A DNA stretch of 29,812 nt, taken from a virus. The position numbers and the translations under genes are program-made. The stretch's first letter is position 1. Each line of letters opens with the position of its first letter. The notes beneath the pieces were generated by a model. The model worked only from the letters and a program-made list of their open reading frames with translations. It searched no databases and had not been told where the DNA came from. This document shows positions 14,395-27,459 of this stretch, piece after piece. The stretch is from the IMG/VR virus record IMGVR_UViG_3300032285_001014, positions 1 to 29,812 of that record, one strand, 5' to 3'.

Positions 14395-17300
14395 ATGGCA
14401 AAGAGTCAAATTAGACAATATGTCTTTACACCAGGAACAGCTGGTAATGGCAAAATCTACTTACAAGGTAAGTATGATCTCAATCAGATTTTATTAATCA
14501 CAAACAGCACAGTAAATTCAATCATTTACAACTTTGCTGATCCTGCGTTTACAGGTACTACAGTAAGTTTTACACGTAACAACGACATTGCTGACGGATT
14601 TTTCAGTACATTAGATGCAGCAGATGGTTATACTACTATTACACTATCTGTAGATACCAGCACAATGTTGTCTACGCACTCTTTACAAATTCTCTACGAA
14701 CGCCCAGAAATGTTAATGCGTATGCCAGAAGTTGGTACAGACGCATTTGAACGTACTCGTGTTTCAGCTCCGCAATCCATGCTTGACGCTGACTTTGAAT
14801 ATGGACTACAACCAACTAAGTGGTTAACATATTCATTAATGCGCGGCTATCCGAGTGTTTATGAAGTTCCAGGTACAGACCAAGCTGTATTATCCGTTAC
14901 AACCGATGCTTCAGCAGGCACTGGCGGCACAGGCGAAAGTTTAATTACTGTGGTTAACTCAACAGCATTTCCAAGTAGCTGGGTCGTAGGTAGTCCAATC
15001 ACTGTTAAAGGTTATTTGAATACAGTTTTAGGATTTGCCCGTGCTGAAGGTTCATTCTTAATCAACTCAATCAGTGGTTCAACACTAACGTATTACGCTA
15101 AGGCTAAAGTAGGTTCAGCTAACGGTGATGTGTTATCTACAACATATACTCAGTTACGTCAAGGTGCTTTTTACACTGGATCAGGCGTTGGTACACCAAC
15201 TTATAGTGTATCAACTCAAGCAACAGCAGTTGGCACAACAACAGCAGGTGTTATTGCTACATCAAGCACAACAGTTACTGGTACAATTAGCGGAACCACA
15301 CTAACTACCAGTGCTGGTAGCCCAGCAATTGGACAAGTATTGTCAGGCGGCGGTGTACTTCCAGGAACATATATTGTCAGCGGTTCAAGTACTACTTGGA
15401 CTCTTAACGCAAGCCAGACTATTTCATCTAGTACTGTATTCACAGCAACAACCAATACTTTTACTGCTAACGCAACTATTACTGGTACATTTGCTGTAGG
15501 TCAAGTATTAAGCGGTACAAACGTTCCTAACGGAGCAACAATTATTGTTTCTGGATCAAGTGCAGCTCCAGGTGTATTCACAGGTACTGGTAGCAACGCA
15601 GGCGGAACATACGCATTATTAGTTGGAGCTGCAGTAAGTAGCACGACTATTGTTGGTACTACTAATTTGGCAATTTGCACAGTAACATTTGCTGCCAACC
15701 ACGGATTTATTCCTGGTAATACAATTATTAGTCAAATTACATCAGACGTATCTGCTGTACAAAACCACGCACTATTACAAGGACCATTCTTTGTTGAAAC
15801 TGTGCCAAGTTTAACTACACTTACATTTACAGCTAGAAATGCTGGACAAATTAGCGGCTCAGTTACTGGTGTGGTTTATGCCCGTCCAGACTCTTTCTAT
15901 TCACACAGACCATTTGACGGTGGTGTTATGCTAGGTACTGGTAGCCCATCACACGGAGCAATGGCTGTACGTATGAGTAAGAAATACATTCGTTATCAGT
16001 CTGGTAAGGCTATTAACTACAATACTGGTGCGCTATTTTCACCTAACTATGATATTCGTAGTCTTGTTGCTACCAACACAACTTCAACAACTTACACAAC
16101 AACATCAACTGGAACTATTAGTTTAGGTTCAACCAGCATTACTATTACTAGTGGTACTAACGCAATTAACGGTATGTTGATTAGCGGAACTGGTATTCCA
16201 ACAGGTGCTTATATTGTTTCAGGCGGTGGTACAACTACTGTAGTAATTAACGTAGCCACTGTTGCTAGTATCAGTGCTGGAACTACTATTACATTTACAC
16301 CTACTATCACTGTTACAACAGACGATACTGACCATGGTTGCCAACCAGGTGCTACAGTCAGCTTGATCGGTGTAACAACATCAGGTTATAACGGTACATA
16401 CACAGTTGGTGCTATTGTCGATGAGCGTAACTTACTTGTAGCAGTTACTCAGACACTAGGTGCTACTCCGGCAGTTATCGGAACACCTTGTGTCATGCAG
16501 ATTGTTTCATGGTGGGGTGCTACTGTACGTGCTGGTACATTTGATGAACAAAACGGACAATTTTGGCAATGGGATGGTACTCAATTGGCCATCGGTCGCC
16601 GTAGTTCAACATTCCAAATTGCTGGTAACGTAACAGTTACGCCTGACTCAAACTCAGTTGTGGGTGTAAGCACAAGATTTACCGATCAACTAGCCGCTGG
16701 TGACCGTGTGGTTATTCGTGGTATGACACACGTAGTTTCACAAGTTGTATCAAATACACAAATTTATGTAACACCTGACTATCGTGGATCAGTTGCTGCC
16801 AGCGGTGTTAAGATAGTTAAAACTATCGACCGTTTAGTACCACAATCACAGTGGAACATGGATCGTTGCGATGGTACCAGTGGTCCGTTTAACCCAAGCG
16901 GTTACAGCATTAACACTAACAAGATGCAGATGATTGGCTTACAATGGACATGGTACGGTGCTGGTTTTATTGACTGGATGCTACGTGGACCAGAAGGCAA
17001 ATACATTACTGTACATCGCTTACGTGGTAACAACTTGAACACAGAAGCGTATATGCGTTCTGGTAACGCTCCAGTTCGTTATGAAGTTGTTAACGAAGGC
17101 GCAAAAACTACATTAAGTGCTAGTGCCACAACTGGTGACACTACACTAAGTTTATCAGACGTTACTTACTTCCCAGCAGCCAGCGCGGCATATCCAGCTT
17201 ACTGCTATGTTGACAACGAACTAATCAGCTATACTGGTAAAACAACTGGCGCAAGCTCAGTTAACCCACTAAACAATCAAATTGTTTATGCTGGTACACT

Positions 17301-18735
17301 AACAGGTGTAAGCCGTACAGTTACTATGCCAGTGTTCGTAGCAGGACAAACACGTTTGTTCTCATCAAACGGCGGATCTGCTCAATCGCACAACGCAGGT
17401 GCTGGTGTTATCCTAGTTGGACAAACTTCTACTCCAAGTATCAGTCACTGGGGTTCAGCGTTCCTGCAAGACGGTGGATTTGACCAAGACCGTGGTTACA
17501 TCTTTAACTATCAAGGTACTAACGTTACGATTAACACTAAAAAGACCACAGCATTTGCTATTCGTCTAGCACCTAGCGTTTCAAACGCTATTGTAGGTGA
17601 CTTAGGTGTACGTGAACTTATCAACCGTGCGCAGTTATTGTTACAGTCTATTGAAATTACAGCTGGTGGTACTGCTAACACTAACTCAGCTTTGGTAATT
17701 GAAGCTATTTTGAATCCAAGTAACTATCCAACTAACGTGGCCAACATTACTTGGAACAGTTTAAGTTCAACAGCACTACCGACTGGACAACCTTCGTTCA
17801 GTCAGATTGCTAACGGTACTAGTGTCACATTCCAAGGTTCAGCAACTAACACAACCACAACAGCTTCAGTTGGCGTTTATTTTAACTCTAACATTGCTGG
17901 TGTAACCATATTGCCAGTTACTAGCACATCAGGTTTGCTTGTGGGTGATGACGTATACGTTCCGGCAGCTCCGGCAGCTATTTACGGTGCTACCAAAATT
18001 ACAGCAATCAACACAGGTGCTACATTCACAGCTACTCTAGCAGTGGCAACTGGTACTACAGCTAGCGCATTGACCAGTACAATCGCCGGTACATTGTTTA
18101 CTATCGGTGGAGCAATTAGTGGTACATTTGCTACAGGTATGGTTCTAAGCGGTTCAGGTGTAACAACTGGTACATATATCATTGGCCCAGGTACTGCGGC
18201 TAACACATGGTATGTTAACGTGGCACAAACTGTTTCAAGCACAACTATTACTGGTACTCCATATGTATTAACTGTAAGCAGTTTAACAGCAGGTACAGTA
18301 GTTGTTGGACAAACACTAACAGGCGGTGCTGTTACTAACACTCCATTGATTATTGGTTATGGTACAGGTACTGGCGGTAACGGTACATATTACATCAACA
18401 CAACTTACACTGGTACTCCAACAGGTGCTAGCGTGGCTGTTCAATATGTAACATTTAACAACCCAGTTCCGACTCCATGGTATGTAGGTACAACAGTACA
18501 GTTCAGTCGTAACACTTATGCGTTACCAGGCGAAACTGTATTCTCGTTCATTAGCTCACCAAGTAACAAGGACTCATTAGATCTAACACCATTTAAGGAA
18601 TTGACTAACACACCAATCGGTGGACGTGGTACATTCCCGAACGGTCCAGACGTGTTGTTCTTCAACGTATACTTAACACAAGGTTCGCCAGTGTTGGCTA
18701 ACTTGGTTCTACGTTGGGGTGAAGCTCAGGCCTAA
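14395..18735 (+). CDS. Large virion structural protein, 1446 aa
   Basis: This is the largest protein in the window. The N-terminus (about residues 1-165) and the region around 810-1130 (for example LQWTWYGAGFIDWMLRGPEG and the NVTVTPDSNSVVGVSTRFTD region) look like the backbone of a large structural protein I remember from T4-like cyanophages. Three blocks of low-charge S/T/G-rich sequence interrupt it at about residues 290-420, 560-640 and 1225-1350. Each is built from a degenerate unit resembling 'G-x-VLSG-x-x-V-x-x-GT-x-IV...G-x-Y', which suggests inserted Ig-like or beta-prism domains for surface adhesion. GGAG precedes the ATG by 8 bases, a late-like box lies upstream and a strong terminator follows. 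Exact virion position is unknown. Confidence 0.85.
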   Translation: MAKSQIRQYVFTPGTAGNGKIYLQGKYDLNQILLITNSTVNSIIYNFADPAFTGTTVSFTRNNDIADGFFSTLDAADGYTTITLSVDTSTMLSTHSLQILYERPEMLMRMPEVGTDAFERTRVSAPQSMLDADFEYGLQPTKWLTYSLMRGYPSVYEVPGTDQAVLSVTTDASAGTGGTGESLITVVNSTAFPSSWVVGSPITVKGYLNTVLGFARAEGSFLINSISGSTLTYYAKAKVGSANGDVLSTTYTQLRQGAFYTGSGVGTPTYSVSTQATAVGTTTAGVIATSSTTVTGTISGTTLTTSAGSPAIGQVLSGGGVLPGTYIVSGSSTTWTLNASQTISSSTVFTATTNTFTANATITGTFAVGQVLSGTNVPNGATIIVSGSSAAPGVFTGTGSNAGGTYALLVGAAVSSTTIVGTTNLAICTVTFAANHGFIPGNTIISQITSDVSAVQNHALLQGPFFVETVPSLTTLTFTARNAGQISGSVTGVVYARPDSFYSHRPFDGGVMLGTGSPSHGAMAVRMSKKYIRYQSGKAINYNTGALFSPNYDIRSLVATNTTSTTYTTTSTGTISLGSTSITITSGTNAINGMLISGTGIPTGAYIVSGGGTTTVVINVATVASISAGTTITFTPTITVTTDDTDHGCQPGATVSLIGVTTSGYNGTYTVGAIVDERNLLVAVTQTLGATPAVIGTPCVMQIVSWWGATVRAGTFDEQNGQFWQWDGTQLAIGRRSSTFQIAGNVTVTPDSNSVVGVSTRFTDQLAAGDRVVIRGMTHVVSQVVSNTQIYVTPDYRGSVAASGVKIVKTIDRLVPQSQWNMDRCDGTSGPFNPSGYSINTNKMQMIGLQWTWYGAGFIDWMLRGPEGKYITVHRLRGNNLNTEAYMRSGNAPVRYEVVNEGAKTTLSASATTGDTTLSLSDVTYFPAASAAYPAYCYVDNELISYTGKTTGASSVNPLNNQIVYAGTLTGVSRTVTMPVFVAGQTRLFSSNGGSAQSHNAGAGVILVGQTSTPSISHWGSAFLQDGGFDQDRGYIFNYQGTNVTINTKKTTAFAIRLAPSVSNAIVGDLGVRELINRAQLLLQSIEITAGGTANTNSALVIEAILNPSNYPTNVANITWNSLSSTALPTGQPSFSQIANGTSVTFQGSATNTTTTASVGVYFNSNIAGVTILPVTSTSGLLVGDDVYVPAAPAAIYGATKITAINTGATFTATLAVATGTTASALTSTIAGTLFTIGGAISGTFATGMVLSGSGVTTGTYIIGPGTAANTWYVNVAQTVSSTTITGTPYVLTVSSLTAGTVVVGQTLTGGAVTNTPLIIGYGTGTGGNGTYYINTTYTGTPTGASVAVQYVTFNNPVPTPWYVGTTVQFSRNTYALPGETVFSFISSPSNKDSLDLTPFKELTNTPIGGRGTFPNGPDVLFFNVYLTQGSPVLANLVLRWGEAQA

Positions 18736-18750
18736 CACAACAGACCAAAG

Positions 18751-18774
18751 AAAGCACCGCAAGGTGCTTTTTTT
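18751..18774 (+). terminator. Rho-independent terminator after the large virion gene
   Basis: AAAGCACC (18751-18758), a GCAA tetraloop and GGTGCTTT (18763-18770) form a perfect 8-bp stem, followed by T residues to 18774. It ends transcription of the 1446-aa gene. Confidence 0.95.
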
Positions 18775-18781
18775 GTGACTA

Positions 18782-18789
18782 CATAAATA
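18782..18789 (+). promoter_or_regulatory. T4-late-like promoter box CATAAATA
   Basis: The box follows directly after the terminator and ends only five bases before the ATG at 18794. With T4 late spacing the transcript would start at about 18795, that is, at the start codon. Confidence 0.55.
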
Positions 18790-18793
18790 TCAT

Positions 18794-19234
18794 ATGCCCC
18801 GTTTATCTTCTCTTACATCCAGACTATTAGCCGGCCGAGCTATTACGATCTCTGCAGCAAGCGGTTTAGTTACCGGTAACATTACTGTAGGATATAACAA
18901 TCTAGTTGGTGACAGATATGGATATCAATCTGGCTTTCCCGGCCCTTATGGATCAGCTAATAATACACCAGTTGGTATTATTCAAGGGTTATTTAGAGAT
19001 GTTAGTTCAAACTATACAGCATTAAGATTTAATGGCGGAACTCTTGGAATATACACTACTGACAGTATGTCAGGGTTAATTAATACTATTACTAGTTTAA
19101 CCGTTAGGCTTGGCGGGCAAACAGCAATTTTAACATCCAGCGGCCCAAGCGCAGGAGGCTATTCAATTACGGGAGATCCATTTAGTTTATTATCAAAGAA
19201 TGGACAAACGTTAACGTTATCAATAAATATTTGA
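18794..19234 (+). CDS. Probable virion or fibre-associated protein, 146 aa
   Basis: The composition is that of a fibre or virion protein: few charges, many S/T/G/N, with strands such as AITISAASGLVTGNITVGY and LTVRLGGQTAILTSSG. No family is recognised. It lies just behind the terminator and a late-like promoter box and has no visible ribosome-binding site. Its TGA overlaps the ATG of the next gene by one base. Confidence 0.75.
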   Translation: MPRLSSLTSRLLAGRAITISAASGLVTGNITVGYNNLVGDRYGYQSGFPGPYGSANNTPVGIIQGLFRDVSSNYTALRFNGGTLGIYTTDSMSGLINTITSLTVRLGGQTAILTSSGPSAGGYSITGDPFSLLSKNGQTLTLSINI

Positions 19235-19491
19235 TGCCCACATACGTCAACTGGGATTATGTTCCCGTTAAACATGATTTTGTTTATACAGCTTCTATAA
19301 AATGGCCCGGACAAGCATATGAACAGTTGGATTGGATTCTGGGCATAACAGATGTGGAAGACTGGTTACTCAAGTACACAGGCCCTAAATATCAACGCTG
19401 GGCATGGAACATGGGTACAGAGTCCTATCAAATATCAGTGGCCTTTAAGTATGACAAACACAAGACCCTGTTCCTACTCAATTACAGCTGA
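19234..19491 (+). CDS. Unknown 85-aa protein in the late block
   Basis: I use the ATG at 19234, which shares a base with the preceding stop (TGATG), rather than the TTG just before it. The protein is rich in aromatic residues (MPTYVNWDYVPVKHDFVY, SIKWPGQAYEQLDWILG, YQRWAWNMGTESYQ), suggesting a compact beta-rich fold. No function is recognised. Confidence 0.7.
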   Translation: MPTYVNWDYVPVKHDFVYTASIKWPGQAYEQLDWILGITDVEDWLLKYTGPKYQRWAWNMGTESYQISVAFKYDKHKTLFLLNYS

Positions 19492-19542
19492 AGGCGGAAG
19501 CAAATTTTTTGAAGAAAGCGAAGCTGCAAGCTAAATTTTCTA

Positions 19543-19583
19543 GCTACGAAGTAGCAAGCGGTAAAACGCGAACTAGCGTTACC
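19543..19583 (+). other. Two adjacent stem-loops in the intergenic region
   Basis: The gap 19492-19609 contains GCTAC-GAA-GTAGC (19543-19555) and, four bases later, a bulged stem GGTAA(A)ACGC with GCGTTACC (19560-19583). Neither is followed by a T run, so a processing signal or weak terminator is as likely as a true intrinsic terminator. Confidence 0.6.
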
Positions 19584-19597
19584 GATACAGTATCTCC

Positions 19598-19605
19598 TAT
19601 AAATA
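19598..19605 (+). promoter_or_regulatory. T4-late consensus box TATAAATA
   Basis: This is an exact match to the T4 late promoter box. It ends four bases before the ATG at 19610, so the predicted start of transcription falls on the start codon. Confidence 0.65.
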
Positions 19606-19609
19606 CATA

Positions 19610-20269
19610 ATGAAAATACGCGAAGTAACAGAACCCCAACCCGTTGCACAGCCTGTACAACAACCACAGCCAGCCCCTGCAGCTCCACAAGCTCAACAGA
19701 CTGCTGATCCTACTCCCGAACAAATGAAACAGGGCGAGCAAATGTTGGGCACTATAGATCCCGCCGTAACACCGCCAGAACAAGCGACTAATAAGTTAAC
19801 AGGATGGCTTAAACAGTATCCCTGGTTAGATCGTGTTACTGACCTATTACCTGCTACTCGTGTGATCAAAGCTGCCGCTAGTGCTATAGATGCTATTCAA
19901 GCTGGAGATCCTAGACAAGCTATTGCTGCCTTAGCTGGCGCAGGAGGTCGTGCTATACAGCAGGCCAACACTATAGCACAAACTGGTACAGCACTGGCAC
20001 AAGGTGATGTACAAGGTGCTGCACTAGCTGCAGGTGGTAAGGTTGGACAAGTGGCACAAGTGGCAAATGTTACTCAAAATCTAGCACAAAACAATCTAGC
20101 TGGCGCTGCACAAGCTGCAGGTGGTACAGCAGCCAAAGTAGCTAACGTAGCACAAAAAGTACAGCAGTATGCTCCACAAGCACAACAAGCTGTACAAACC
20201 GCACTCGCACCACAGCAACAGCCTGTAAGTGAAGTAGCTAGGATTCGTCGTCTAGCTGGTTTGCGTTAA
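19610..20269 (+). CDS. Ala/Gln-rich late protein with C-terminal LAGL motif, 219 aa
   Basis: Residues 10-45 are Pro/Gln/Ala rich (PVAQPVQQPQPAPAAPQAQQ), and a more regular helical region follows (LTGWLKQYPWLDRVTDLLPA). From about residue 90 the sequence is almost only A, Q, G, N, V and T in degenerate helical repeats (GAALAAGGKVGQVAQVANVT, then GAAQAAGGTAAKVANVAQKV). The end, VSEVARIRRLAGLR, is a charged amphipathic helix unlike the rest. A late-type promoter suggests a virion, scaffold or internal head protein; a membrane or surfactant-like function is also possible. No family is assigned. Confidence 0.75.
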   Translation: MKIREVTEPQPVAQPVQQPQPAPAAPQAQQTADPTPEQMKQGEQMLGTIDPAVTPPEQATNKLTGWLKQYPWLDRVTDLLPATRVIKAAASAIDAIQAGDPRQAIAALAGAGGRAIQQANTIAQTGTALAQGDVQGAALAAGGKVGQVAQVANVTQNLAQNNLAGAAQAAGGTAAKVANVAQKVQQYAPQAQQAVQTALAPQQQPVSEVARIRRLAGLR

Positions 20270-20471
20270 CACGATCACAAATCCCTTTAATTAGTCTATG
20301 GCGCTCACTGGAGTCCACACGGCTACGACTAATGCGATTAATATCGTCAATGGCTGTTTCTAGTATAGTAATACGCTCAAGAGCAGTGTAATAGCGATCA
20401 CGTAGCGTTGACGCTTGAAATATGCTTATAATGCCAGTTATGAGTTTAACAAGGTAAATGTGTGTGTTCAT
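20238..20471 (-). CDS. Possible 77-aa protein, convergent with the Ala/Gln-rich gene
   Basis: The frame is protein-like: a hydrophobic N-terminus (IYLVKLITGIISIF), then a charged helical, coiled-coil-like region (LERITILETAIDDINRISRS). It overlaps the 3' end of the convergent gene by 32 bases. No ribosome-binding site or good promoter is visible before the ATG, so this is a tentative gene. The alternative is that this stretch is untranslated. Confidence 0.4.
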   Translation of the reverse strand: MNTHIYLVKLITGIISIFQASTLRDRYYTALERITILETAIDDINRISRSRVDSSERHRLIKGICDRVNANQLDDES

Positions 20472-20481
20472 ACTAGTATAT

Positions 20482-20489
20482 AGTAAATA
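20482..20489 (+). promoter_or_regulatory. Possible late promoter box AGTAAATA
   Basis: TAGTAAATATAAG retains the TAAATA core and ends six bases before the ATG at 20495, with the predicted start of transcription on that codon. It is two bases from the T4 late consensus. Confidence 0.35.
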
Positions 20490-20650: not shown

Positions 20651-21067
20651 CGCAAAAAAAATTTGACCAGTACTTACGCAGAATGGCGGAATAGTTTAGG
20701 GCCGGGACTCAGCCCAAATGGGTTCTGGCGACCCCATTTAGATAGTGCGCGAAAAATTTAAAAGAAGTACTTAAACTTTTAGAGGGGTGTTTTTACTTCG
20801 GTACCCATGCGCTACTAGCTAGTAAGTATTAATTTGTATGTATACACCGGTCGGTGGTCGAAAAAATCTTTTATTATTGTCCCGGTCGGTGGAAATTTTT
20901 CTCAAAAAGAAGCCCTGAGTACCGGGAGCGAATCGGATTTATCTCAGGGCTTACTGGTGGTAGAGTGCCTCTCTACCAAGGAGTCTGCTTGCCGGGAGCG
21001 AATCGTTGGGCAGACTGTCTGCGTACAGCTAGCACTCTATGGCGCTATACTGTACAGCATGCACACC
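20651..21067. ncRNA. Candidate structured RNA region without a convincing gene
   Basis: This 417-nt stretch has no convincing gene; open frames crossing it lack a ribosome-binding site and run antisense into the ATPase gene. It contains, in order: a GGGC/GCCC hairpin (20699-20715); an AAATGGG/CCCATTT hairpin (20716-20739); two copies of CCGGTCGGTGG (20847-20857, 20882-20892); a 10-bp hairpin AAGCCCTGAG/CTCAGGGCTT (20910-20952); an 8-bp hairpin TGGTAGAG/CTCTACCA (20958-20978); a 7-bp hairpin AGTCTGC/GCAGACT (20982-21016); and a GTACAG/CTGTAC hairpin (21023-21055). The first and third of the last four hairpins carry the same loop, CCGGGAGCGAATCG (20922-20935, 20992-21005). TCCCGGT at 20880 is complementary to the ACCGGGA in the first loop, so a pseudoknot is possible. 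Strand and boundaries are uncertain. Confidence 0.6.
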
Positions 21068-21970
21068 TTAGCGGTTGCGCATACATGTCATCTCTGCTAC
21101 AGCCTTCCAGCGGTCTGGGAAGCTAACACGCAGGTCAGCTATCTTCAATACAGTACGCAAGCTGAGCTCACGTAGGCGTGCCGTGTTGTCAGCTACGAAG
21201 TTAACCACATCCAGCTTGGCATGGTCCTCCATATCGTACTCGTCCAACATACCGCACTCAGTAACTACCTGACGGATACGGAGTAGCTTCTCACGCTCTG
21301 TATCAATAGTCAAGTCCAAGTAGTGGCAACGGCTCTCCAATGCTTCCAAGTGATCACGCAACTTCTTTGACTTAACGTGATCGAACTTGATGTTGGTAAT
21401 AAAGATAGCACCACCCTTGAACTCAAAGCTGTCTGGCACGCCTTCACGACGTAGCAAATGGCTGTCAGTGTTCCAATGGATAGTACGCTTCTTTGATGTA
21501 TCCAGGGCCGCTTTGAGAATGTTCAAGCTCAAGTCATCCAACAGGATACTGTCACAGTCGTCAAACACTAGCACGTTCTTCTTGTCGCTGTAGTGGTACA
21601 GCTTTGAGTACAAACCAATGGCACTCATTGCGCCCTTGACTACTTCATACTTCTTGAGCTTCTCGTCCTGTGCTACATTAGCGAAGACATCATGCTTTGA
21701 TAGCACCTTCTCAACACCAAAGGATTTACCAACACCTGGAGGGCCTGTGACAATCATAGCACGAACATCACCCTTCTTGACCGCCCGTGTCATGTCGTCA
21801 AGGATATCAAAACGCTCACGCAAGCGAGCCAGGATGTCTTCGTCTGACTCATTAGCCAGTGCCAAAGCCTTGGCATTAATAAATGCCTTGTCTGTTTCCA
21901 AACTGTTGATCTCTGCCTTAGTGGGTTCTGCCAAAGCCGCCAACATCTTACTAGTAACTACTCGTGCCAT
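21068..21970 (-). CDS. AAA+ ATPase, early gene
   Basis: The 300-residue protein has an AAA+ core: Walker A GPPGVGKS (76-83), Walker B VLVFDDCD (133-140), sensor-1 ITN (191-193) and a candidate arginine finger in ALESRCHYLDL (R214). The N-terminal 65 residues are helical and charged, and the C-terminal lid region ends LRTVLKIADLRVSFPDRWKA. It lacks a recognisable extra domain, so it could remodel a protein complex or load a DNA-bound partner. It is the last gene of the early minus-strand block and has its own promoter (21998-22026) and AAGGAGCGA ribosome-binding site. Substrate unknown. Confidence 0.92.
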   Translation of the reverse strand: MARVVTSKMLAALAEPTKAEINSLETDKAFINAKALALANESDEDILARLRERFDILDDMTRAVKKGDVRAMIVTGPPGVGKSFGVEKVLSKHDVFANVAQDEKLKKYEVVKGAMSAIGLYSKLYHYSDKKNVLVFDDCDSILLDDLSLNILKAALDTSKKRTIHWNTDSHLLRREGVPDSFEFKGGAIFITNIKFDHVKSKKLRDHLEALESRCHYLDLTIDTEREKLLRIRQVVTECGMLDEYDMEDHAKLDVVNFVADNTARLRELSLRTVLKIADLRVSFPDRWKAVAEMTCMRNR

Positions 21971-21997
21971 TGTCGCTCCTTCTTAATTAAAAAAGTA

Positions 21998-22026
21998 ATT
22001 ATAACACAATTGGGCACTGGCGTCAA
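21998..22026 (-). promoter_or_regulatory. Early promoter for the AAA+ ATPase gene, within a stem-loop
   Basis: On the minus strand: TTGACG (22021-22026), 17 nt, TATAAT (21998-22003). A perfect 8-bp inverted repeat, ATTGGGCA (22009-22016) with TGCCCAAT (22027-22034), places the -35 hexamer in the loop. Confidence 0.85.
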
Positions 22027-22043
22027 TGCCCAATCATATCGAA

Positions 22044-22388
22044 TTAGTCCAAACGCGATCCTGCGTAAGCTTCGAAGCCATACCGGCGAAACACCTCTGC
22101 GGCCGCTTGAGCGCCTGCTTCTAGTGTGTCTACGTTCTGAACGCCAAGCCCTGCTGGGTTCCAAATTGAGAACGCCTTAGTGTAGTCTTGCTTGACACCA
22201 GCCTGTTTGAGCATCTTGCCCATCTTGGTGTTGCCTTTGACGCCATAGATGTTAGTCCAAGCAAAGCCGCAGGCGTACTGATCCTTGCCGCCCAGCTTGT
22301 CGTAGAAGAACTTCATTGCGGCTTCGTATGCGGCCTGCTGAGCTTCTTTGACGATTTGGTTAACTTGCTCTTGTGTAGTAACTTGCAT
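22044..22388 (-). CDS. Conserved-looking phage protein, 114 aa
   Basis: The protein has a helical N-terminus (QEQVNQIVKEAQQAAYEAAM), then a compact domain with CGFAWTNIYGVKGNTKMGKM, SIWNPAGLGVQNV and a final YGFEAYAGSRLD. I recall similar proteins in several unrelated phages, all of unknown function. It has its own promoter at 22420-22448 and an AGGAGCGAACC ribosome-binding site directly before ATG 22388. Confidence 0.85.
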   Translation of the reverse strand: MQVTTQEQVNQIVKEAQQAAYEAAMKFFYDKLGGKDQYACGFAWTNIYGVKGNTKMGKMLKQAGVKQDYTKAFSIWNPAGLGVQNVDTLEAGAQAAAEVFRRYGFEAYAGSRLD

Positions 22389-22419
22389 AGGTTCGCTCCT
22401 GTGTGTTGTTTAAGTCTTA

Positions 22420-22448
22420 ATTATACAGTCGTTTGCTCAGAGTGTCAA
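22420..22448 (-). promoter_or_regulatory. Early promoter for the 114-aa gene
   Basis: Perfect hexamers TTGACA (22443-22448) and TATAAT (22420-22425) with 17-nt spacing. The -35 contains the TGA stop of the upstream gene (22445-22447). Confidence 0.88.
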
Positions 22449-22687
22449 GCGACTTCTTTGAATACTCGATAGCCATAGGCTGTCAGTTTCTGTATGGCAA
22501 ACTGGATCTCTTTGTGGGTTGCATCTAGGGCATCCAGAACCTGCTTGGCTTCTTTGATAGTGCTGGCTTGGCAGTCCTGTCCTGAGCGGATGTGACGGCA
22601 ATCATAATAGCGTTCGCCATCATAGTCATCAATGACCAATTGGTATGTGCCAAAGCCCTTGTAGACAATCATTTCGTTTTGCTTCAT
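22445..22687 (-). CDS. Small early protein, 80 aa, unknown
   Basis: An 80-residue protein beginning MKQNEMIVYKGFGTYQLVID, with strands in the first half and a helix (STIKEAKQVLDALDATHKEI) after it. This beta-then-helix pattern recurs in other small early proteins here. Promoter at 22714-22742 and AAGGAGCGAACC before the ATG support the start. Its stop lies in the next promoter's -35. Confidence 0.8.
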   Translation of the reverse strand: MKQNEMIVYKGFGTYQLVIDDYDGERYYDCRHIRSGQDCQASTIKEAKQVLDALDATHKEIQFAIQKLTAYGYRVFKEVA

Positions 22688-22713
22688 GGTTCGCTCCTTG
22701 TTGCTAAGTGTTA

Positions 22714-22742
22714 ATTATACTGTCTTTAGTTCAATCCGTCAA
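22714..22742 (-). promoter_or_regulatory. Early promoter for the 80-aa gene
   Basis: TTGACG (22737-22742), 17 nt, TATAAT (22714-22719), lying within the last codons of the 28-aa membrane peptide. Confidence 0.85.
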
Positions 22743-22812
22743 CCACTAAGATTGCTATGAACATGACAAAGATTGGGCTCATCATAATGGCCAAGTTGAT
22801 CAAGGCCTGCAT
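22726..22812 (-). CDS. 28-aa hydrophobic micropeptide
   Basis: ATG at 22812 shares a base with the stop of the preceding gene (TAATG), with GAGGTG in Shine-Dalgarno position. The peptide MQALINLAIMMSPIFVMFIA continues hydrophobically to VDGLN, long enough for one membrane span. Coupled translation makes expression plausible. Its last 17 nt overlap the next promoter. Confidence 0.5.
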   Translation of the reverse strand: MQALINLAIMMSPIFVMFIAILVVDGLN

Positions 22813-23012
22813 TAGATGAACACCTCTTTGCTGAGGATCCGGTCTTCTACGAGCTTGTGGCAAGTGTTGAGCACCATAAAGGCTATTTGATATGCCTGGG
22901 CCCGTTCCTGCCGATTACTCAAGCCTTCAATGCGACTGAACATGTCCTCTAGAGTGGGTTCAGTAACAAAGAGATCGTTCTTTGGGATTGGGTTCTCTAC
23001 TACATTGTACAT
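22812..23012 (-). CDS. Small early protein, 66 aa, unknown
   Basis: The 66-residue product starts MYNVVENPIPKNDLFVTEPT and is otherwise helical (LEDMFSRIEGLSNRQERAQA). Promoter at 23046-23074 and AAGGAGCGAAAC ahead of the ATG support it. It is coupled to the 28-aa membrane peptide downstream. No function is recognised. Confidence 0.78.
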   Translation of the reverse strand: MYNVVENPIPKNDLFVTEPTLEDMFSRIEGLSNRQERAQAYQIAFMVLNTCHKLVEDRILSKEVFI

Positions 23013-23045
23013 AAGTTTCGCTCCTTATTGTGTGTTGATATGAGT

Positions 23046-23074
23046 ATTATACTGTCTTAAGCCACTTCTGTCAA
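23046..23074 (-). promoter_or_regulatory. Early promoter for the 66-aa gene
   Basis: TTGACA (23069-23074), 17 nt, TATAAT (23046-23051). The stop codon of the gp88-family gene (23057-23059) lies within the spacer. Confidence 0.88.
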
Positions 23075-23761
23075 GCGGATTACGAAGCCACTGTAGTCTT
23101 TTTTGGCACGGCCTTTGGCCTTGAGTCCAATCATGCCCACTTTGGGATCCAAAAAGCGCAGGTCTGTTTCGTCTGCTGAGAACATGCCTTCGGGCAGTTG
23201 ATCGTAGACTGCGGCCACGTTCATGCCTTCACGCACCGCTTGACGGCAATCGCTGTCATTGTTTTCAGCACGGCTAAAGGTCAAGTGATAGTTCTTAATC
23301 TGCTTGACCTTACGACCCAGGATCTTTGTATAGTCATAGAACTGTACATTAGGGAAAGTGTCAAAGATGTTCAAACCATTGCCTTCAACGTCATACTTTT
23401 CAAATGCCAAGTCGCTGGTACCATTGAGGCGGAATACTGGCTTCAAACCCTGCTTCTCAGCGAACTTGATGCCCTTCTCAATGTCTGCTTTCAAATCCTT
23501 CATAAAGCCCGCGCGATCGTTGAAGAAGTATTCAGTCTTGCGAATGCGAGCCTTTTGGATCATGTTAGTGTTCTCGCCCTTGCGGAACATGCCACCACGG
23601 CCTGCGGTGTTAAGGCAAGCGGCAATACAGCCTGGGGTTGCCTTTGGGCATACGTTCTTGCCCGACAGGTCGCTGGGTGCCAAGTGAAGGATGAAGCTGA
23701 GGTAGCCCAGCTTGGTGCCTTTTTGGATTTTGGGATTCGCTGTGGAAAGCAATTTAAACAT
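23057..23761 (-). CDS. Gp88-family phage protein, 234 aa
   Basis: The sequence fits the phage 'gene product 88' family: an N-terminal NPKIQKGTKLGYLSFILHLA, then a cysteine cluster CPKATPGCIAACLNTAGRGG (C38, C45, C49), and RLNGTSDLAFEKY and FYDYTKI strands typical of the family. The cysteine spacing suggests a metal or iron-sulphur site, and a radical-SAM-like barrel has been suggested to me by the pattern, but biochemical function is unknown. Promoter at 23791-23819 and AAGGAGCGAACC before the ATG. Confidence 0.85.
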   Translation of the reverse strand: MFKLLSTANPKIQKGTKLGYLSFILHLAPSDLSGKNVCPKATPGCIAACLNTAGRGGMFRKGENTNMIQKARIRKTEYFFNDRAGFMKDLKADIEKGIKFAEKQGLKPVFRLNGTSDLAFEKYDVEGNGLNIFDTFPNVQFYDYTKILGRKVKQIKNYHLTFSRAENNDSDCRQAVREGMNVAAVYDQLPEGMFSADETDLRFLDPKVGMIGLKAKGRAKKDYSGFVIRLTEVA

Positions 23762-23790
23762 GGTTCGCTCCTTGTTCGTTGTAAGTGTAT

Positions 23791-23819
23791 ATTATAACGC
23801 CTTTTGGGCGGAGTGTCAA
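23791..23819 (-). promoter_or_regulatory. Early promoter for the gp88-family gene
   Basis: TTGACA (23814-23819), 17 nt, TATAAT (23791-23796). The spacer contains a small CGCC/GGCG stem (23798-23810), and the copy of the GACCC/GGGTT element at 23821-23843 lies just upstream. Confidence 0.88.
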
Positions 23820-23820
23820 T

Positions 23821-23843
23821 AACCCTTTAGCAATCAGGGTCAA
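23821..23843 (-). repeat. GACCC...GGGTT inverted-repeat element, copy D
   Basis: Minus-strand GACCCTGATTGCTAAAGGGTT ends three bases before TTGACA of the gp88 promoter. It overlaps the last codons and stop of the 68-aa gene. Related copies are at 24394-24420, 28576-28600 and 29755-29781. Confidence 0.6.
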
Positions 23844-24033
23844 AGCTCATCCACTCGTCATACTCACTGGGTTGGCCATCGTCTTCATCCTCTTCAAGCA
23901 GGATGTCGTTAGCTCGCATCATGTCTGCAACCTCGTCCTCGCTCATATAAGCCAGGGCCATCTCTGCCACCGCCTCTGCGCTGATAAGACCCTCGTCCAT
24001 CATTGCAATCAGTTTGCTAGTCATTTCACGCAT
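23827..24033 (-). CDS. Small acidic early protein, 68 aa, unknown
   Basis: The product is helical (TSKLIAMMDEGLISAEAVAE) and strongly acidic in the second half (ILLEEDEDDGQPSEYDEWMS). Acidic early proteins in phages are sometimes DNA mimics or inhibitors of host nucleic-acid enzymes, but there is no specific evidence here. Promoter at 24067-24095, AAGGAGCGAAAC ahead of the first codons. Confidence 0.75.
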   Translation of the reverse strand: MREMTSKLIAMMDEGLISAEAVAEMALAYMSEDEVADMMRANDILLEEDEDDGQPSEYDEWMSFDPDC

Positions 24034-24066
24034 AAGTTTCGCTCCTTATTTGCTGTTGATGTTAGT

Positions 24067-24095
24067 ATTATAGTCTCTTTTGGGCAGACTGTCAA
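24067..24095 (-). promoter_or_regulatory. Early promoter for the 68-aa gene
   Basis: TTGACA (24090-24095), 17 nt, TATAAT (24067-24072). The stop of the upstream gene (24092-24094) is part of the -35, and AGTCT/AGACT arms (24072-24076, 24086-24090) bracket most of the spacer. Confidence 0.88.
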
Positions 24096-24337
24096 CCCCA
24101 GTCCTTCTTGTCACCATTGGCTTCATTGTAGTCATAACCCGCGTGGTACGCTTCAACTTCATCAGCTGACATCATGTTCATAGCGATGCGGGGCTCATTG
24201 TAAGTGCCATTTGGGTAGAAGTGTGGATCACGTGGGCGACCGTAGTAGGAATCAGCGGATCCACGATCAAATGCATTGCCGTGTGTCTGTTCGTAGGTTT
24301 TGCCGTGTACGGTATAGAGGGTTACTTGATCAAACAT
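24092..24337 (-). CDS. Small early protein, 81 aa, unknown
   Basis: The protein begins MFDQVTLYTVHGKTYEQTHG and is rich in Tyr, Asp, Gly and His, with YYGRPRDPHFYPNG in the middle and EVEAYHAGYDYNEANGDKKD at the end. The end recalls the 'Y-x-AGY' segment of small phage proteins, but function is unknown. Promoter at 24364-24392 and AAGGAG before the ATG. Confidence 0.78.
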   Translation of the reverse strand: MFDQVTLYTVHGKTYEQTHGNAFDRGSADSYYGRPRDPHFYPNGTYNEPRIAMNMMSADEVEAYHAGYDYNEANGDKKDWG

Positions 24338-24363
24338 ATCTGCTCCTTATTGTCTATGTCATA

Positions 24364-24392
24364 ATTATAACACTCAACGCATATCTTGTCAA
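24364..24392 (-). promoter_or_regulatory. Early promoter for the 81-aa gene
   Basis: TTGACA (24387-24392), 17 nt, TATAAT (24364-24369). Copy A of the GACCC/GGGTT-type element lies directly upstream. Confidence 0.88.
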
Positions 24393-24393
24393 C

Positions 24394-24420
24394 AACCTTT
24401 CACTCTGTAGGGTCTTTATA
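24394..24420 (-). repeat. GACCC...GGGTT-like element, copy A
   Basis: Minus strand TATAAAGACCC, then nine variable bases and AAAGGTT, directly before the -35 of the 81-aa gene's promoter. The second arm has GGTT instead of GGGTT, so the inverted repeat is weaker than in the other copies. Confidence 0.5.
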
Positions 24421-24465
24421 GACACGCCCACCGGCGCCGTCCATCCCGTTGCCTTCGAAGTGTTA

Positions 24466-24494
24466 ATTATACAGCCAAAACGAAAGGCAGTCAA
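24466..24494 (-). promoter_or_regulatory. Orphan early promoter after the tRNA
   Basis: TTGACT (24489-24494), 17 nt, TATAAT (24466-24471). The -35 sits within the 3' arm of the terminator-like hairpin after the tRNA. The transcript would run from about 24459 towards 24395 with at most a 14-codon frame (MDGAGGRVYKDPTE, ATG near 24443), preceded by AAGG. Confidence 0.75.
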
Positions 24495-24514
24495 CCTTGC
24501 GATCAACTGCCTTT
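24483..24514 (-). terminator. Terminator-like hairpin after the tRNA
   Basis: AAAGGCAGT (24506-24514, read on minus) and ACTGCCTTT (24483-24491) form a perfect 9-bp stem with a 14-nt loop, followed on the minus strand by CGTTTT. It lies 4 bases beyond the tRNA 3' end. Confidence 0.75.
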
Positions 24515-24517
24515 GTA

Positions 24518-24593
24518 TGGTGGGCCCACTTGGATTTGAACCAAGGACCAAAGGATTATGAGTCCTCTGCTCTAACCACTGAGCTATAGGCCC
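24518..24593 (-). tRNA. tRNA-Ile(CAU), lysidine type, CCA encoded
   Basis: The 76-nt gene folds into a standard cloverleaf: acceptor GGGCCTA with TGGGCCC, D arm GCTC...GAGC, anticodon stem GAGGA/TCCTT with loop CTCATAA (anticodon CAT), T arm CTTGG-TTCAAAT-CCAAG, and an encoded CCA. The CAT anticodon could mean Met, but the body, especially AGCTCAGTGGTTAGAGCA and the ACTCATAATC loop, closely resembles bacterial tRNA-Ile2, whose C34 is changed to lysidine to read AUA. Early co-expression fits a need for AUA-decoding in an AT-rich phage. It lies six bases after a small early gene, so it probably matures from the same transcript. Confidence 0.95.
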
Positions 24594-24598
24594 TTGTC

Positions 24599-24790
24599 TT
24601 AACCTATCAGGCCTTTGTACCTTTTTATTTCTCTCAGATCATCGTCTGTATCCTCTAGGATCCAAATCTCTTCATTGAACTCTAGCAGATCTTCTACAAT
24701 CTGCTCTGCTTCTTTAAGGGTTGGAACGCACTCGAGCAGTTCTTCGTGACCGTCGAGTGAGCCCCAGACTTCGTACTGAATGAATGCCAT
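24599..24790 (-). CDS. Small acidic early protein, 63 aa, upstream of the tRNA
   Basis: The 63-residue product has beta-then-helix character (FIQYEVWGSLDGHEELLECV, then LKEAEQIVEDLLEFNEEIWI). The PTLKEAE phrase also occurs in the MGTRS protein (FPTLKEAEEHY), so the two may share a small motif. It starts two bases after the stop of the 124-aa gene without its own promoter, and its end is 5 bases from the tRNA. Confidence 0.75.
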   Translation of the reverse strand: MAFIQYEVWGSLDGHEELLECVPTLKEAEQIVEDLLEFNEEIWILEDTDDDLREIKRYKGLIG

Positions 24791-24792
24791 GT

Positions 24793-25167
24793 TTAGAAAG
24801 GAATGTTTTCGTCCATGCCTTCAGTTGTGGTAACTGCCTTGGCCTTGGCAGGCGCTTTGGTAGTCTTCGCTACCGGAGTCTTCGTTGCCTTAGCAACAGG
24901 CTTAGAGACCTTAGCCTTAGGAGTGTTGTCTTCGATGTATTCAACGATCGTAGACTGCGCAATAGCATCGCTGAACTCGTCGAGACCCAAGAGGATCTGA
25001 GCAGCTTCTAGCTTGGTAACTGACTGCTCAAGGTCAGCCAAGCGGATGTCTTCATGGCCGCTCTTTGCGAGCACCTTGATGCGCATCATATCATTGGCGA
25101 AACGAATCTTGTACTCGCCGTTGAGTTTAGAAATACCAGCAACTGAAAAAGTCTTATCTGTAGCCAT
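24793..25167 (-). CDS. Early protein with Lys/Ala/Pro-rich tail, 124 aa
   Basis: Residues 1-80 look like a small globular domain (FSVAGISKLNGEYKIRFAND, then MRIKVLAKSGHEDIRLADLE). Residues 85-115 form a basic low-complexity linker (PKAKVSKPVAKATKTPVAKT), and the end is acidic (EGMDENIPF). The acidic tip ending in F recalls the tail of single-stranded DNA-binding proteins, which bind partner proteins through such tips; this is only a resemblance. Its leader is longer than in other early genes (about 55 nt), and its ribosome-binding site, AGAAGGAAAC, differs from the usual AAGGAGCGA. Confidence 0.82.
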   Translation of the reverse strand: MATDKTFSVAGISKLNGEYKIRFANDMMRIKVLAKSGHEDIRLADLEQSVTKLEAAQILLGLDEFSDAIAQSTIVEYIEDNTPKAKVSKPVAKATKTPVAKTTKAPAKAKAVTTTEGMDENIPF

Positions 25168-25228
25168 TTTAAAAGTTTCCTTCTGTGTGTGTTAAAAAAT
25201 ATGAACGCTTTGTTGTGTCCATGTTCTA

Positions 25229-25257
25229 ATTGTACAACTCTTTTGGTTAGTTGTCAA
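25229..25257 (-). promoter_or_regulatory. Early promoter for the 124-aa gene, 63-aa gene and tRNA
   Basis: TTGACA (25252-25257), 17 nt, TACAAT (25229-25234). The stop of the 86-aa gene (25254-25256) lies within the -35. Confidence 0.85.
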
Positions 25258-25514
25258 CCATTTTTCTTTGGTTTTGGACGAATCTTTGGCTGTTGTTTTT
25301 TCACAACACTTCCAAACTCCTTGTTGGAGTAGTATTTGATAAGATTACGCTGAATCATTGTAATCAAATCACCATGATCATCATCCACGACGAACCTTAC
25401 AGGACATGCTCCCCAACTGCCCGTTACCACGAAATTATGGTAATGGAGTCTGTGCTCCTTATCGGAGGGATCAAACACCACATAGGGTCTGCCGAAGAGC
25501 GATAGCCTGCTCAT
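25254..25514 (-). CDS. Small early protein, 86 aa, unknown
   Basis: The protein is beta-like in its first part (RPYVVFDPSDKEHRLHYHNF, VTGSWGACPVRFVVDDDHGD) with a basic Pro/Lys tail (KKQQPKIRPKPKKNG), suggesting a small nucleic-acid or protein-binding protein. It overlaps the 43-aa gene by ATGA, with AAGG upstream, and is the last gene of the operon led by the 88-aa gene. Confidence 0.78.
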   Translation of the reverse strand: MSRLSLFGRPYVVFDPSDKEHRLHYHNFVVTGSWGACPVRFVVDDDHGDLITMIQRNLIKYYSNKEFGSVVKKQQPKIRPKPKKNG

Positions 25515-25642
25515 TTAGCCTTGGTGATCCATTGACGAATCACGGCCTCTAGTTCTTGCCAAGCGTATTGTTTTGGAGCAGGACGCACTCGGGCCTGAGC
25601 CCTAGCATCATACTCCATGTTCTTTTCTTTATTAGTCTTCAT
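25511..25642 (-). CDS. 43-aa early protein, unknown
   Basis: ATG at 25642 overlaps the end of the 198-aa gene, with AGGAAACC immediately upstream. The product is basic and helical (MKTNKEKNMEYDARAQARVR, then WQELEAVIRQWITKAK), and its stop overlaps the next ATG. Overlaps at both ends and a ribosome-binding site support it as real. Confidence 0.7.
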   Translation of the reverse strand: MKTNKEKNMEYDARAQARVRPAPKQYAWQELEAVIRQWITKAK

Positions 25643-26228
25643 TGGTTTCCTCTTGGTTTTCTTCTTCCCACTCGCGCAGGTTCTCTACGATACACATACA
25701 CTCGTCCAACTCTGGGTTGATCACTGCTTCCAGTTCGTCAGCAGTCATGTCCGTGTATTCAATGTAGTCATCACCGTTCTCGTCAAAGATACCAGCGAAG
25801 CACATACCTGGTTCCCAGTAGAACAACTTAACCTTGAATCCTAAGTCCTGGAACTTCTCCATGGCGTTGATGGGAGGTGCCCATGCTGAATCAAACGATA
25901 ACGACAATCTAGTGCCGCCTTCATCTTCCATAGTATGATCAATGGCATCATCGCCGCCCACATCCCACTTGGTGCCCCATTCGTTGACGCAGAAGTCATA
26001 CCATGTGGCATAGCCATGCTTCTCAATGTTAGCCTTCTCTTTGGCTTCTAGCTCATTCTGCTCGGGAGAACCTTTAGCACCTACAGAGCCTGCTACGATG
26101 TGTAGGTCCTCTGGGACGGGCACGAACTCTGCCAACAGCCTACCATCAGCATAGGCCTTCTTAGCACGAGTGATCATTGCTGGGTCTTCGTGTATGAGTT
26201 CCAGTGTGTTATTACACCAATTAGGCAT
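25632..26228 (-). CDS. Api92/YubB-like ferredoxin-fold protein, 198 aa
   Basis: The sequence opens MPNWCNNTLELIHEDPAMIT, the hallmark of DUF1281/Api92-like proteins, and keeps later family blocks: FVPVPEDL, WYDFCVNEWGTKWDV (about 78-92), FDSAWAPPINAMEKF (about 112-126) and VKLFYWEPGMCFAG. Proteins of this family occur on plasmids and phages and are predicted to have a ferredoxin-like fold; function is unknown. The acidic tail (EEENQEETNED) overlaps the next gene. It starts one base after the stop of the 88-aa gene, with GGAG upstream. Confidence 0.88.
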   Translation of the reverse strand: MPNWCNNTLELIHEDPAMITRAKKAYADGRLLAEFVPVPEDLHIVAGSVGAKGSPEQNELEAKEKANIEKHGYATWYDFCVNEWGTKWDVGGDDAIDHTMEDEGGTRLSLSFDSAWAPPINAMEKFQDLGFKVKLFYWEPGMCFAGIFDENGDDYIEYTDMTADELEAVINPELDECMCIVENLREWEEENQEETNED

Positions 26229-26229
26229 C

Positions 26230-26496
26230 TTAGACTCCCATTTCGTAAAAGGTTACTGAAGGATCAATGCTGATGAGTTCTTCAGCACAACGGAACAGAT
26301 AACGCTGTTTCATTTGAAGTTCCGCACCACGCACTTCACCATCACAGGTGAGGTTCTCTGGGCTAAGGTCCGCATCCAGTGAGTTGGCAATTGCCTGGCG
26401 ATCCTTAGCGTTCAACAAGCTCAAAGGCTTAGAACCAAACAGTTTGCCCCAAGCGTTCTTACGCTCTACATACGATTCAATGTTGCTGATATTCAT
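26230..26496 (-). CDS. Small early protein, 88 aa, unknown; leads a four-gene operon
   Basis: The protein (ISNIESYVERKNAWGKLFGS, then LSLLNAKDRQAIANSLDADL) is helical with a more beta-like end (LISIDPSVTFYEMGV). No family is recognised. The gene has the promoter at 26525-26553 and AAGGAGCG before ATG 26496, and is followed closely by the Api92-like, 43-aa and 86-aa genes without further promoters. Confidence 0.78.
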   Translation of the reverse strand: MNISNIESYVERKNAWGKLFGSKPLSLLNAKDRQAIANSLDADLSPENLTCDGEVRGAELQMKQRYLFRCAEELISIDPSVTFYEMGV

Positions 26497-26524
26497 CTAC
26501 GCTCCTTGCTGTGTTTAAGTGTTT

Positions 26525-26553
26525 ATTATACTAGATCTTACGGATCTTGTCAA
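26525..26553 (-). promoter_or_regulatory. Early promoter for the 88-aa gene operon
   Basis: TTGACA (26548-26553), 17 nt, TATAAT (26525-26530). The upstream gene ends inside it (stop at 26531-26533), and AGATC/GATCT arms (26533-26537, 26543-26547) form a small inverted repeat in the spacer. Confidence 0.85.
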
Positions 26554-26773
26554 TAACCATGATGGCTTCCTGGGTATTGTCCAGGCGTGCTTCAATCTCC
26601 AGCTCTTCAGCGCGAAGTTTGAGTTCACGGCTGTAAGCGTCCATCAGCTCTTGGGCATAGACTTTATCGTCTTCGTCTGCCTGTTCGAACCATGCTTTGA
26701 ACTCGTCACCTTTGGTGTTGAGCAAGAACTCCAGGTTATCCCTGTCCCAATCGTTGGTTATGAATCCTTTCAT
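26531..26773 (-). CDS. Small helical early protein, 80 aa
   Basis: The 80-residue product (FITNDWDRDNLEFLLNTKGD, AWFEQADEDDKVYAQELMDA) is acidic and ends in a long coiled-coil-like helix (LRAEELEIEARLDNTQEAIM). It overlaps the 46-aa gene upstream by ATGA and its stop touches the -10 hexamer of the next promoter. No function is recognised. Confidence 0.78.
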   Translation of the reverse strand: MKGFITNDWDRDNLEFLLNTKGDEFKAWFEQADEDDKVYAQELMDAYSRELKLRAEELEIEARLDNTQEAIMVIDKIRKI

Positions 26774-26910
26774 AGCTCGCGTCCTTTGTGTTTGGGTTGA
26801 CGTTTGAATGCCTTCTTGCTCTCTACAACCTTAGGCTTGAAGGGTGTATTTTGGGCAAAGAGAACAAAGTGTTCCCTATGCTTTTTGGGTATCTTAATCG
26901 TAATCTTCAC
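26770..26910 (-). CDS. 46-aa basic early protein, GTG start
   Basis: A longer frame extends upstream, but it would start within the promoter. I set the start at GTG 26908-26910 because AAGGAG lies 6-7 bases upstream and the promoter -10 at 26936-26941 puts the transcript start near 26929. The product KITIKIPKKHREHFVLFAQN is basic throughout and ends QPKHKGREL. Nucleic-acid binding is likely from charge alone. Confidence 0.65.
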   Translation of the reverse strand: MKITIKIPKKHREHFVLFAQNTPFKPKVVESKKAFKRQPKHKGREL

Positions 26911-26935
26911 ATCGCTCTCCTTACTTGATGTCATA

Positions 26936-26964
26936 ATTATAGCATCAATTGGGAAGAGCGTCAA
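26936..26964 (-). promoter_or_regulatory. Early promoter for the 46-aa and 80-aa genes
   Basis: TTGACG (26959-26964), 17 nt, TATAAT (26936-26941), beginning 3 bases after the stop of the 70-aa gene. Confidence 0.85.
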
Positions 26965-26967
26965 CCG

Positions 26968-27180
26968 TTAGGCTCCGAAGTAATCACCCTGATCAAACTC
27001 GTCTGCTTCAAGCTCGTCCCAAGACTCAGCGTCTACATCAGCTGGGTCTACCCCAAATGTGTCTAGCACATCATTGACTTCCTCAACTGGAATGCCCAGC
27101 TGAACGGCAATAGCCTTGGCACCGTAGCCCTCAATGAAAAGGCTTTCGATATCGTAGAACAAATCCTTAACTGCACCCAT
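26968..27180 (-). CDS. 70-aa acidic early protein with HTH-like segment
   Basis: The start is ATG 27180, preceded by AAGGAGAAGACC; the upstream in-frame ATG at 27210 lacks such a signal and lies within the previous gene. Residues about 19-43 (GYGAKAIAVQLGIPVEEVND) look like a sigma-like helix-turn-helix (A-x-x-LG-[IV]-x-x-x-x-V), followed by a very acidic tail. This could be a small regulator or anti-host factor; only the HTH-like pattern supports that. Confidence 0.75.
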   Translation of the reverse strand: MGAVKDLFYDIESLFIEGYGAKAIAVQLGIPVEEVNDVLDTFGVDPADVDAESWDELEADEFDQGDYFGA

Positions 27181-27190
27181 GGTCTTCTCC

Positions 27191-27406
27191 TTAATCGTCG
27201 TAGGCAACATCGCCCATTTCTTTAACTTCTTCTACCGCAACGCCGAGGTCAACGATGCGGGCTGTTTGATCTTCATTGCTCACGCCTTGGAAGGCGGTGC
27301 GGAATGATTGATACTCCCCAAGGAAGTCAAACACATCCTCACGTTCCCATGACTCAGGGACTTCAAGTTCTTGTACCAATACCGTTTCAACAATAACTCG
27401 TTTCAT
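27191..27406 (-). CDS. Small early protein, 71 aa, unknown
   Basis: The start ATG 27406 has AAGGAG 6 bases upstream; the longer in-frame extension to 27472 would overlap the previous gene and has no such signal. The product (MKRVIVETVLVQELEVPESW, then EDVFDFLGEYQSFRTAFQGV) has a beta strand followed by helices and an acidic end. It lies between the MGTRS gene and the HTH-like gene in one operon. Confidence 0.75.
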   Translation of the reverse strand: MKRVIVETVLVQELEVPESWEREDVFDFLGEYQSFRTAFQGVSNEDQTARIVDLGVAVEEVKEMGDVAYDD

Positions 27407-27446: not shown

Positions 27447-27459
27447 GATTGAAACCCTG

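Follow-up and report, generated by a model that had tools for sequence, protein, structure and literature searches.

The mRNA of an early-type gene, nrdC.10, ends in two short hairpins that display the same seed in their loops, and the complement of this seed stands in the translation-initiation region of a target gene at another site of the genome. The hairpin carriers form a group of large, uncultured, T4-like freshwater phages. From these sequence relationships we propose that the nrdC.10 3' UTR is probably a phage trans-acting antisense RNA that delays or limits the translation of late surface and curli genes.

Results

Two hairpins with a common loop follow nrdC.10 on the minus strand

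The window, by which we mean the whole stretch of viral DNA that was analysed (29,812 nt), is a contig fragment of 29.8 kb, and the predicted target sits outside it. A first-pass annotation had described two repeat copies, hairpins of 10, 8 and 7 bp and a further bulged hairpin in a ~400-nt gap at a strand switch of the window, and all of these are where it placed them. The conserved element spans only ~20904-21055, on the minus strand. The features of the locus are as follows.

21998..22026, minus strand: sigma-70-type promoter of nrdC.10 (TTGACG, 17 nt, TATAAT), matching the consensus at 11/12 positions
~21971-21981, minus strand: ribosome-binding site (RBS) of nrdC.10, AAGGAGCGACA
21068..21970, minus strand: nrdC.10-like AAA ATPase gene, 300 aa, with the hairpins in its 3' UTR (PHROG 1250, E 3.5e-83)
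~21023-21055, minus strand: bulged hairpin directly after the nrdC.10 stop codon; relatives commonly have an upstream stem, with an unshared loop
20982..21016, minus strand: hairpin B, 7-bp variable stem and invariant loop CCAACGATTCGCTCCCGG(C/T)AA (covariation in 36 relatives)
20992..21005, minus strand: seed copy B, RNA 5'-CGAUUCGCUCCCGG-3', exact complement of late-gene leaders
20958..20978, minus strand: spacer hairpin between B and A, 8 bp, loop varies
20904..20952, minus strand: hairpin A and U-run, intrinsic terminator of nrdC.10 with the seed in a 23-nt loop (74 nonredundant relatives)
20922..20935, minus strand: seed copy A, RNA 5'-CGAUUCGCUCCCGG-3', recurring in viral contigs
22398, 22696, 23023, 23770, 24044, 28311 and 29696, minus strand: early RBS sites

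On the plus strand the seed reads as its reverse complement, CCGGGAGCGAATCG, with copies at 20922-20935 and 20992-21005. The stems are AAGCCCTGAG/CTCAGGGCTT (20910-20919/20943-20952, 10 bp), TGGTAGAG/CTCTACCA (20958-20965/20971-20978, 8 bp) and AGTCTGC/GCAGACT (20982-20988/21010-21016, 7 bp). The annotation had read the RNA on the plus strand and as one large, ornate molecule. A structured phage RNA it is, in the form of a pair of short hairpins in the nrdC.10 3' UTR, one of them a terminator; the strand has to be reversed, given the position of the U-run, the orientation of nrdC.10 and a minus-strand fold (z -4.06; 0/100 shuffles as good) more significant than that of the plus strand (z -2.40). 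Hairpin A is an intrinsic terminator with a long loop, having a GC-containing stem followed by a U-run (CUUUUU in the window, mostly 7-9 U among relatives) and a same-strand gene upstream.

Several neighboring elements were set aside. The middle (20958-20978) and bulged (21023-21055) hairpins were not given a shared role, as their loops differ among relatives, and the CCGGTCGGTGG repeats (20847-20857 and 20882-20892) were dropped as part of the RNA because they lie past the terminator and are mostly unconserved. The suggested pairing of TCCCGGT (~20880) with the loop was not counted as part of the element either, as this site is also past the terminator and, together with the CCGGTCGGTGG pair, is kept in few listed relatives (e.g. 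L003, L022, L004 and L038); most other listed relatives have CCCCGACCCC in place of CCGGTCGGTGG. An extra plus-strand hairpin, AAATGGGTTC/GACCCCATTT, lies at window 20716-20739, between the last plus-strand ORF and the CCGGTCGGTGG repeats.

Strict and permissive Rfam searches gave no family at threshold at the locus (permissive hits fell far below) and only a tRNA elsewhere in the window, in agreement with the annotation's view that the RNA belongs to no recognised class. The element was also without a homologue by DNA similarity among GenBank phages and plasmids, and a 15-mer scan of bacterial genomes gave no host lead, the matches listed being scattered over unrelated taxa. A likeness to the tRNA T-arm, a guanidine-II-like twin riboswitch and a DNA-level site were dropped as candidates in view of the missing Rfam match, the 3'-UTR position and the opposite-sense partner described below.

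Stems covary around an invariant loop

We found the exact twin pattern, unrelated stems around a common loop as first annotated, in 54 viral contig stretches and one copy ahead of a T-run in 107, which argues that the pattern is not due to chance. After removal of redundancy, the relatives supplied 74 A hairpins, whose 5' arms came in 68 versions and every one of which combines a stem of 6 bp or more with a T-run (one row, L336, is really a leader passed by the filter), and 80 B hairpins, with 73 versions of the 5' arm. Mean stem length was 11.2 bp for A and 7.4 bp for B, versus 6.7 and 5.0 bp in half-swapped controls.

The annotation had reasoned that variable stems around a constant loop mark the loop as functional, and had named covariation in related phage contigs as the check. 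Run on a B class of 36 distinct sequences with a six-pair stem, this analysis bore out the prediction of compensatory changes: 216/216 cells were paired, both sides had changed at 6/6 pairs, and 80 cells were double-changed around 20 invariant loop columns, where redundancy was reduced among the compared hairpins and the change counts are not event counts. The covariation score was 1.029 versus 0.265 for shuffled alignments, and 0/500 shuffles attained it. The hairpins are thus structured RNA under selection, with stems that vary almost freely yet stay paired and a loop that is invariant. Minimal forms in L121, CCCCCCG[ATTCGCTCC]CGGGGGG and AACCTG[ATTCGCTCC]CAGGTT, define a 9-nt loop core, AUUCGCUCC.

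In one B class (L006, L007, L017, L018, L020, L025, L031, L034, L035, L051 and L052), TAAATA lies directly upstream of CCGGGAGCGAATCG on the opposite strand, so that this class looks either like a late leader in inverted orientation or like a late promoter directed antisense to the nrdC.10 3' UTR.

The hairpins end early-type genes

Homologues of the carrier gene in T4-like phages bear the name nrdC.10; its product matched Pfam AAA_16 at 4.6e-07, yet below the Pfam cut-off. Wherever a terminator-linked copy had enough upstream sequence to be testable, it sat downstream of nrdC.10 on the same strand (147/147, with overlapping loci of one contig counted separately), at 50-172 nt from the nrdC.10 tblastn match in 146 cases and at 828 nt in 1.

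The nrdC.10 promoter lies 28 nt upstream of the start codon and is one of many near-perfect sigma-70 promoters on the minus strand of the window, eight of them perfect (21998-29740). T4-type TAAATA near gene starts was found on the plus strand only, at nine sites (7209-20484). From this split of promoter types by strand we infer that early genes occupy the minus strand and late genes the plus strand. In the window, GGAGCGAA stands right before the start codon of seven minus-strand genes; the early RBS here has the form (A)AGGAGCGAA + 1-5 nt + ATG, and plus-strand genes are without it. The early region also contains a phage tRNA-Met (CAT) at window 24518-24593 (minus strand).

In sister phages, the same loop on other stems follows two further small gene families and is itself followed by a separate terminator (L360, L370, L379, L401, L419, L420, L422 and L423). 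The proteins of one family have ~90-112 aa (KTFKVFNALYNG...) and those of the other ~100 aa (KKFSVAG.STLNGKTK.RF...). Twin hairpins occur in these other-gene contexts in L340 and L144, and L341 is one more context. The presence of the same loop after two other gene families indicates that the element is a dispersed module and not specific to nrdC.10.

The seed is complementary to late-gene leaders of the same phages

Twenty large records, chosen only by their hairpins or nrdC.10 gene, were checked for further exact copies of the 12-mer. The non-hairpin copies were in the opposite sense and inside the leader of an ORF in 5/5 cases:

L337 and L339: leader of csgF
L338: leader of a 93-aa protein
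L336 and L335: leader of a DUF4337 protein

In L335 the exact copy lies ~40 nt upstream, and a second GGAGCGAATC is the Shine-Dalgarno (SD) itself.

Scanning the collection for CCGGGAGCGAATCG followed by 0-7 nt and ATG returned 108 stretches, which include the nrdC.10 hairpins themselves (34 in one listing), versus 7 for the reversed motif. TAAATA occurred within 30 nt upstream in 36/52 distinct non-hairpin hits, versus a background of 0.8%, and the remaining hits of those 52 were chance matches or other hairpins. Together with a second scan that required TAAATA, we count at least 76 distinct late leaders, a number that rests on exact-pattern scans and is not exhaustive. In these 76, the T4-type TAAATA lies 8-21 nt (mode 15) upstream of GGGAGCGAATC, with the start codon just downstream. 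On the late mRNAs the leader takes the form (CC)GGGAGCGAAUC(G)AUG, and the csgF-type leader is CCGGGAGCGAATCGATG.

CsgF (PF10614) is one predicted target, and CsgG (PF03783) follows it in the operon. The 93-aa curli-operon protein (phrog_18771) is another; its homologue lies directly upstream of csgF in the phages Melnitz and HTVC008M. Secreted proteins and the DUF4337 protein are also predicted targets. Some genomes contain a pair of such leaders (G054, G058, G061, G066 and G068). At L337:556 and L339:840 (plus strand), a second curli-operon gene, encoding a CsgA/B-like repeat protein, has the SD GGAGCGAATAAAATG, with a shorter match to the loop. The leaders of TNSTSTST-rich secreted proteins (L342, L343, L456 and L466) contain AAGTTGGGAGCGAATCAACT, which could fold into a small hairpin with an SD-bearing loop, and loop-loop kissing between this leader hairpin and the antisense hairpin is possible.

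Hairpin and leader occur together in 9/9 records of at least 250 kb (G006, G009, G010, G012, G014, G015, G017, G041 and G042), seven of which had been picked by hairpin or nrdC.10 gene and two by leader. G006 and G014 have one mismatch to the 12-mer, G017 has a matched variant, and in G009 complementarity to the SD copy itself extends over just 10 nt. Exact complementary runs within one genome are 10-17 nt long, with duplex energies of -31 to -37 kcal/mol, whereas shuffled leaders average -11. In the near-identical pair G016/G017, which is one lineage, the leader is flanked by GTTG...CAAC instead of CCG...CG and the flanks of the B hairpin agree with it, giving 17 nt of complementarity versus at most 13 with the hairpins of other genomes. 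For the common CCGG type, a complementarity matrix showed no specificity of a hairpin for its own genome. The AUGG after many leaders is likewise complementary to the B loop CCAACGATTCGCTCCCGG, with one mismatch.

Curli csgF/csgG operons have been described in pelagimyophages and in methylophage Melnitz (PMC7029224, PMC9004378). Melnitz and HTVC008M carry predicted target genes, namely csgF/csgG and the 93-aa gene. As GGAGCGAA is absent from both cultured genomes, they were ruled out as hairpin carriers; term searches of the two papers (PMC7029224 and PMC9004378) found no mention of a small RNA or hairpin.

Discussion

We suggest that the early nrdC.10 mRNA provides, through its 3' UTR, a trans-acting antisense RNA, either the UTR as such or a product processed from it, with a 3' fragment presumably released. 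Both hairpin loops display the seed, and the distal hairpin also serves as the terminator. The seed would meet the leader of late mRNAs from T4-type TAAATA promoters of the same phage and pair with it over ~10-17 nt. As this pairing covers the Shine-Dalgarno and the spacer, ribosome binding should be blocked and the effect would be repression. Surface and secretion proteins might in this way be held back until the early RNA has decayed or is outnumbered, which would give the RNA a role in timing. What has kept the loop constant is most likely its complementarity to the Shine-Dalgarno leaders of late genes in the same phages, and not an internal contact.

An alternative is that the loops mainly target early mRNAs through the RBS AAGGAGCGAA(N)ATG and shut off early translation, that of nrdC.10 included, at the early-late switch, like an RNA counterpart of T4 RegB/RegA. 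The loop core UUCGCUCC does match the general early RBS borne by the seven minus-strand genes above; GGAG-type sites in the loci continue with CGAA in 338/994 cases (34% vs 10.8% background), early-RBS sites number 6-18 per large genome and cluster around the hairpin locus, and the loop of L119 and L120, two distant relatives, agrees with the early form. We nevertheless regard this as improbable, since pairing with the early RBS extends over ~8 nt (~-14 kcal/mol), against 14 nt or more and -31 to -37 kcal/mol for late leaders, and the invariant bases beside the core (A before UUCG, C after CUCC) fit the late GGGAGCGAAU and not the early AGGAGCGAAC/A. Regulation of early genes may be a second effect of the loops.

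Two further readings dispense with antisense pairing altogether. Twin stem-loops at a 3' end can stabilise mRNA, and hairpin A is a good terminator, so the hairpins might only protect or terminate the mRNA 3' end, with the loop bound by a phage or host protein and the leader match arising from reuse of the sequence. A protein-bound loop should appear in the same sense at both places, yet the partner is the exact reverse complement and is placed at the Shine-Dalgarno of many different late genes, which makes this explanation very unlikely. That the same 14-mer stands at distant sites of one genome would also be expected of a site in double-stranded DNA, used by a regulator or in replication or recombination, with its orientation differing between loci by chance. 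Such a site would explain neither the strict 3'-UTR position before terminators on one side and the SD-to-ATG spacing behind late promoters on the other, nor the compensatory changes in the flanking RNA stems, and we give it hardly any credence.

Antisense pairing with late leaders, the reading we prefer, is of a functional kind that is already known, phage antisense RNA acting at a ribosome-binding site, as with c4 and sar. The loops of c4 contain short sequences that pair with the ribosome-binding region. Most of what is known of antisense control within phages comes from temperate immunity circuits and single cases. The c4 antisense RNA of P1/P7 and the sar RNA of P22 are established phage antisense RNAs (reviewed in PMC12197685). 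Like them, the RNA proposed here would be encoded by a phage and would, by pairing, keep translation of a phage mRNA from starting. They belong to the immunity and antirepressor circuits of temperate phages and have one target each, whereas the present seed has two copies, is found in early-gene terminator loops of large T4-like phages, and matches a leader common to several late genes. Homology to the P1/P7 c4 RNA was not found through Rfam thresholds or through DNA similarity to GenBank phages, and this anatomy, a duplicated seed in early-gene terminator loops and a late regulon with one leader, was found neither in Rfam nor in the literature searched.

Bacterial sRNAs derived from 3' UTRs use the terminator of the mRNA, the regulatory RNA being the 3' end of a coding mRNA. 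The present case differs in that the seed is within the terminator loop itself and the system is viral. GOLLD and ROOL are likewise structured RNAs of environmental phages; unlike their fold of several hundred nt, the conserved unit here is a short hairpin with an antisense seed and without an Rfam match.

The RNA family is widespread and strongly covarying, and its predicted target set can be read from sequence alone. The role of curli and surface genes in phages is an open question (PMC7029224, PMC9004378), and the match between hairpin and leader ties early transcription to these late genes. A broader picture, for which we see about as much reason for belief as for doubt, is that large T4-like freshwater phages possess a post-transcriptional timer, in which interchangeable seed hairpins on several early mRNAs would silence a late surface, curli and secretion regulon with one operator-like leader, maybe by loop-loop kissing, and maybe also tune early GGAGCGAA RBSs.
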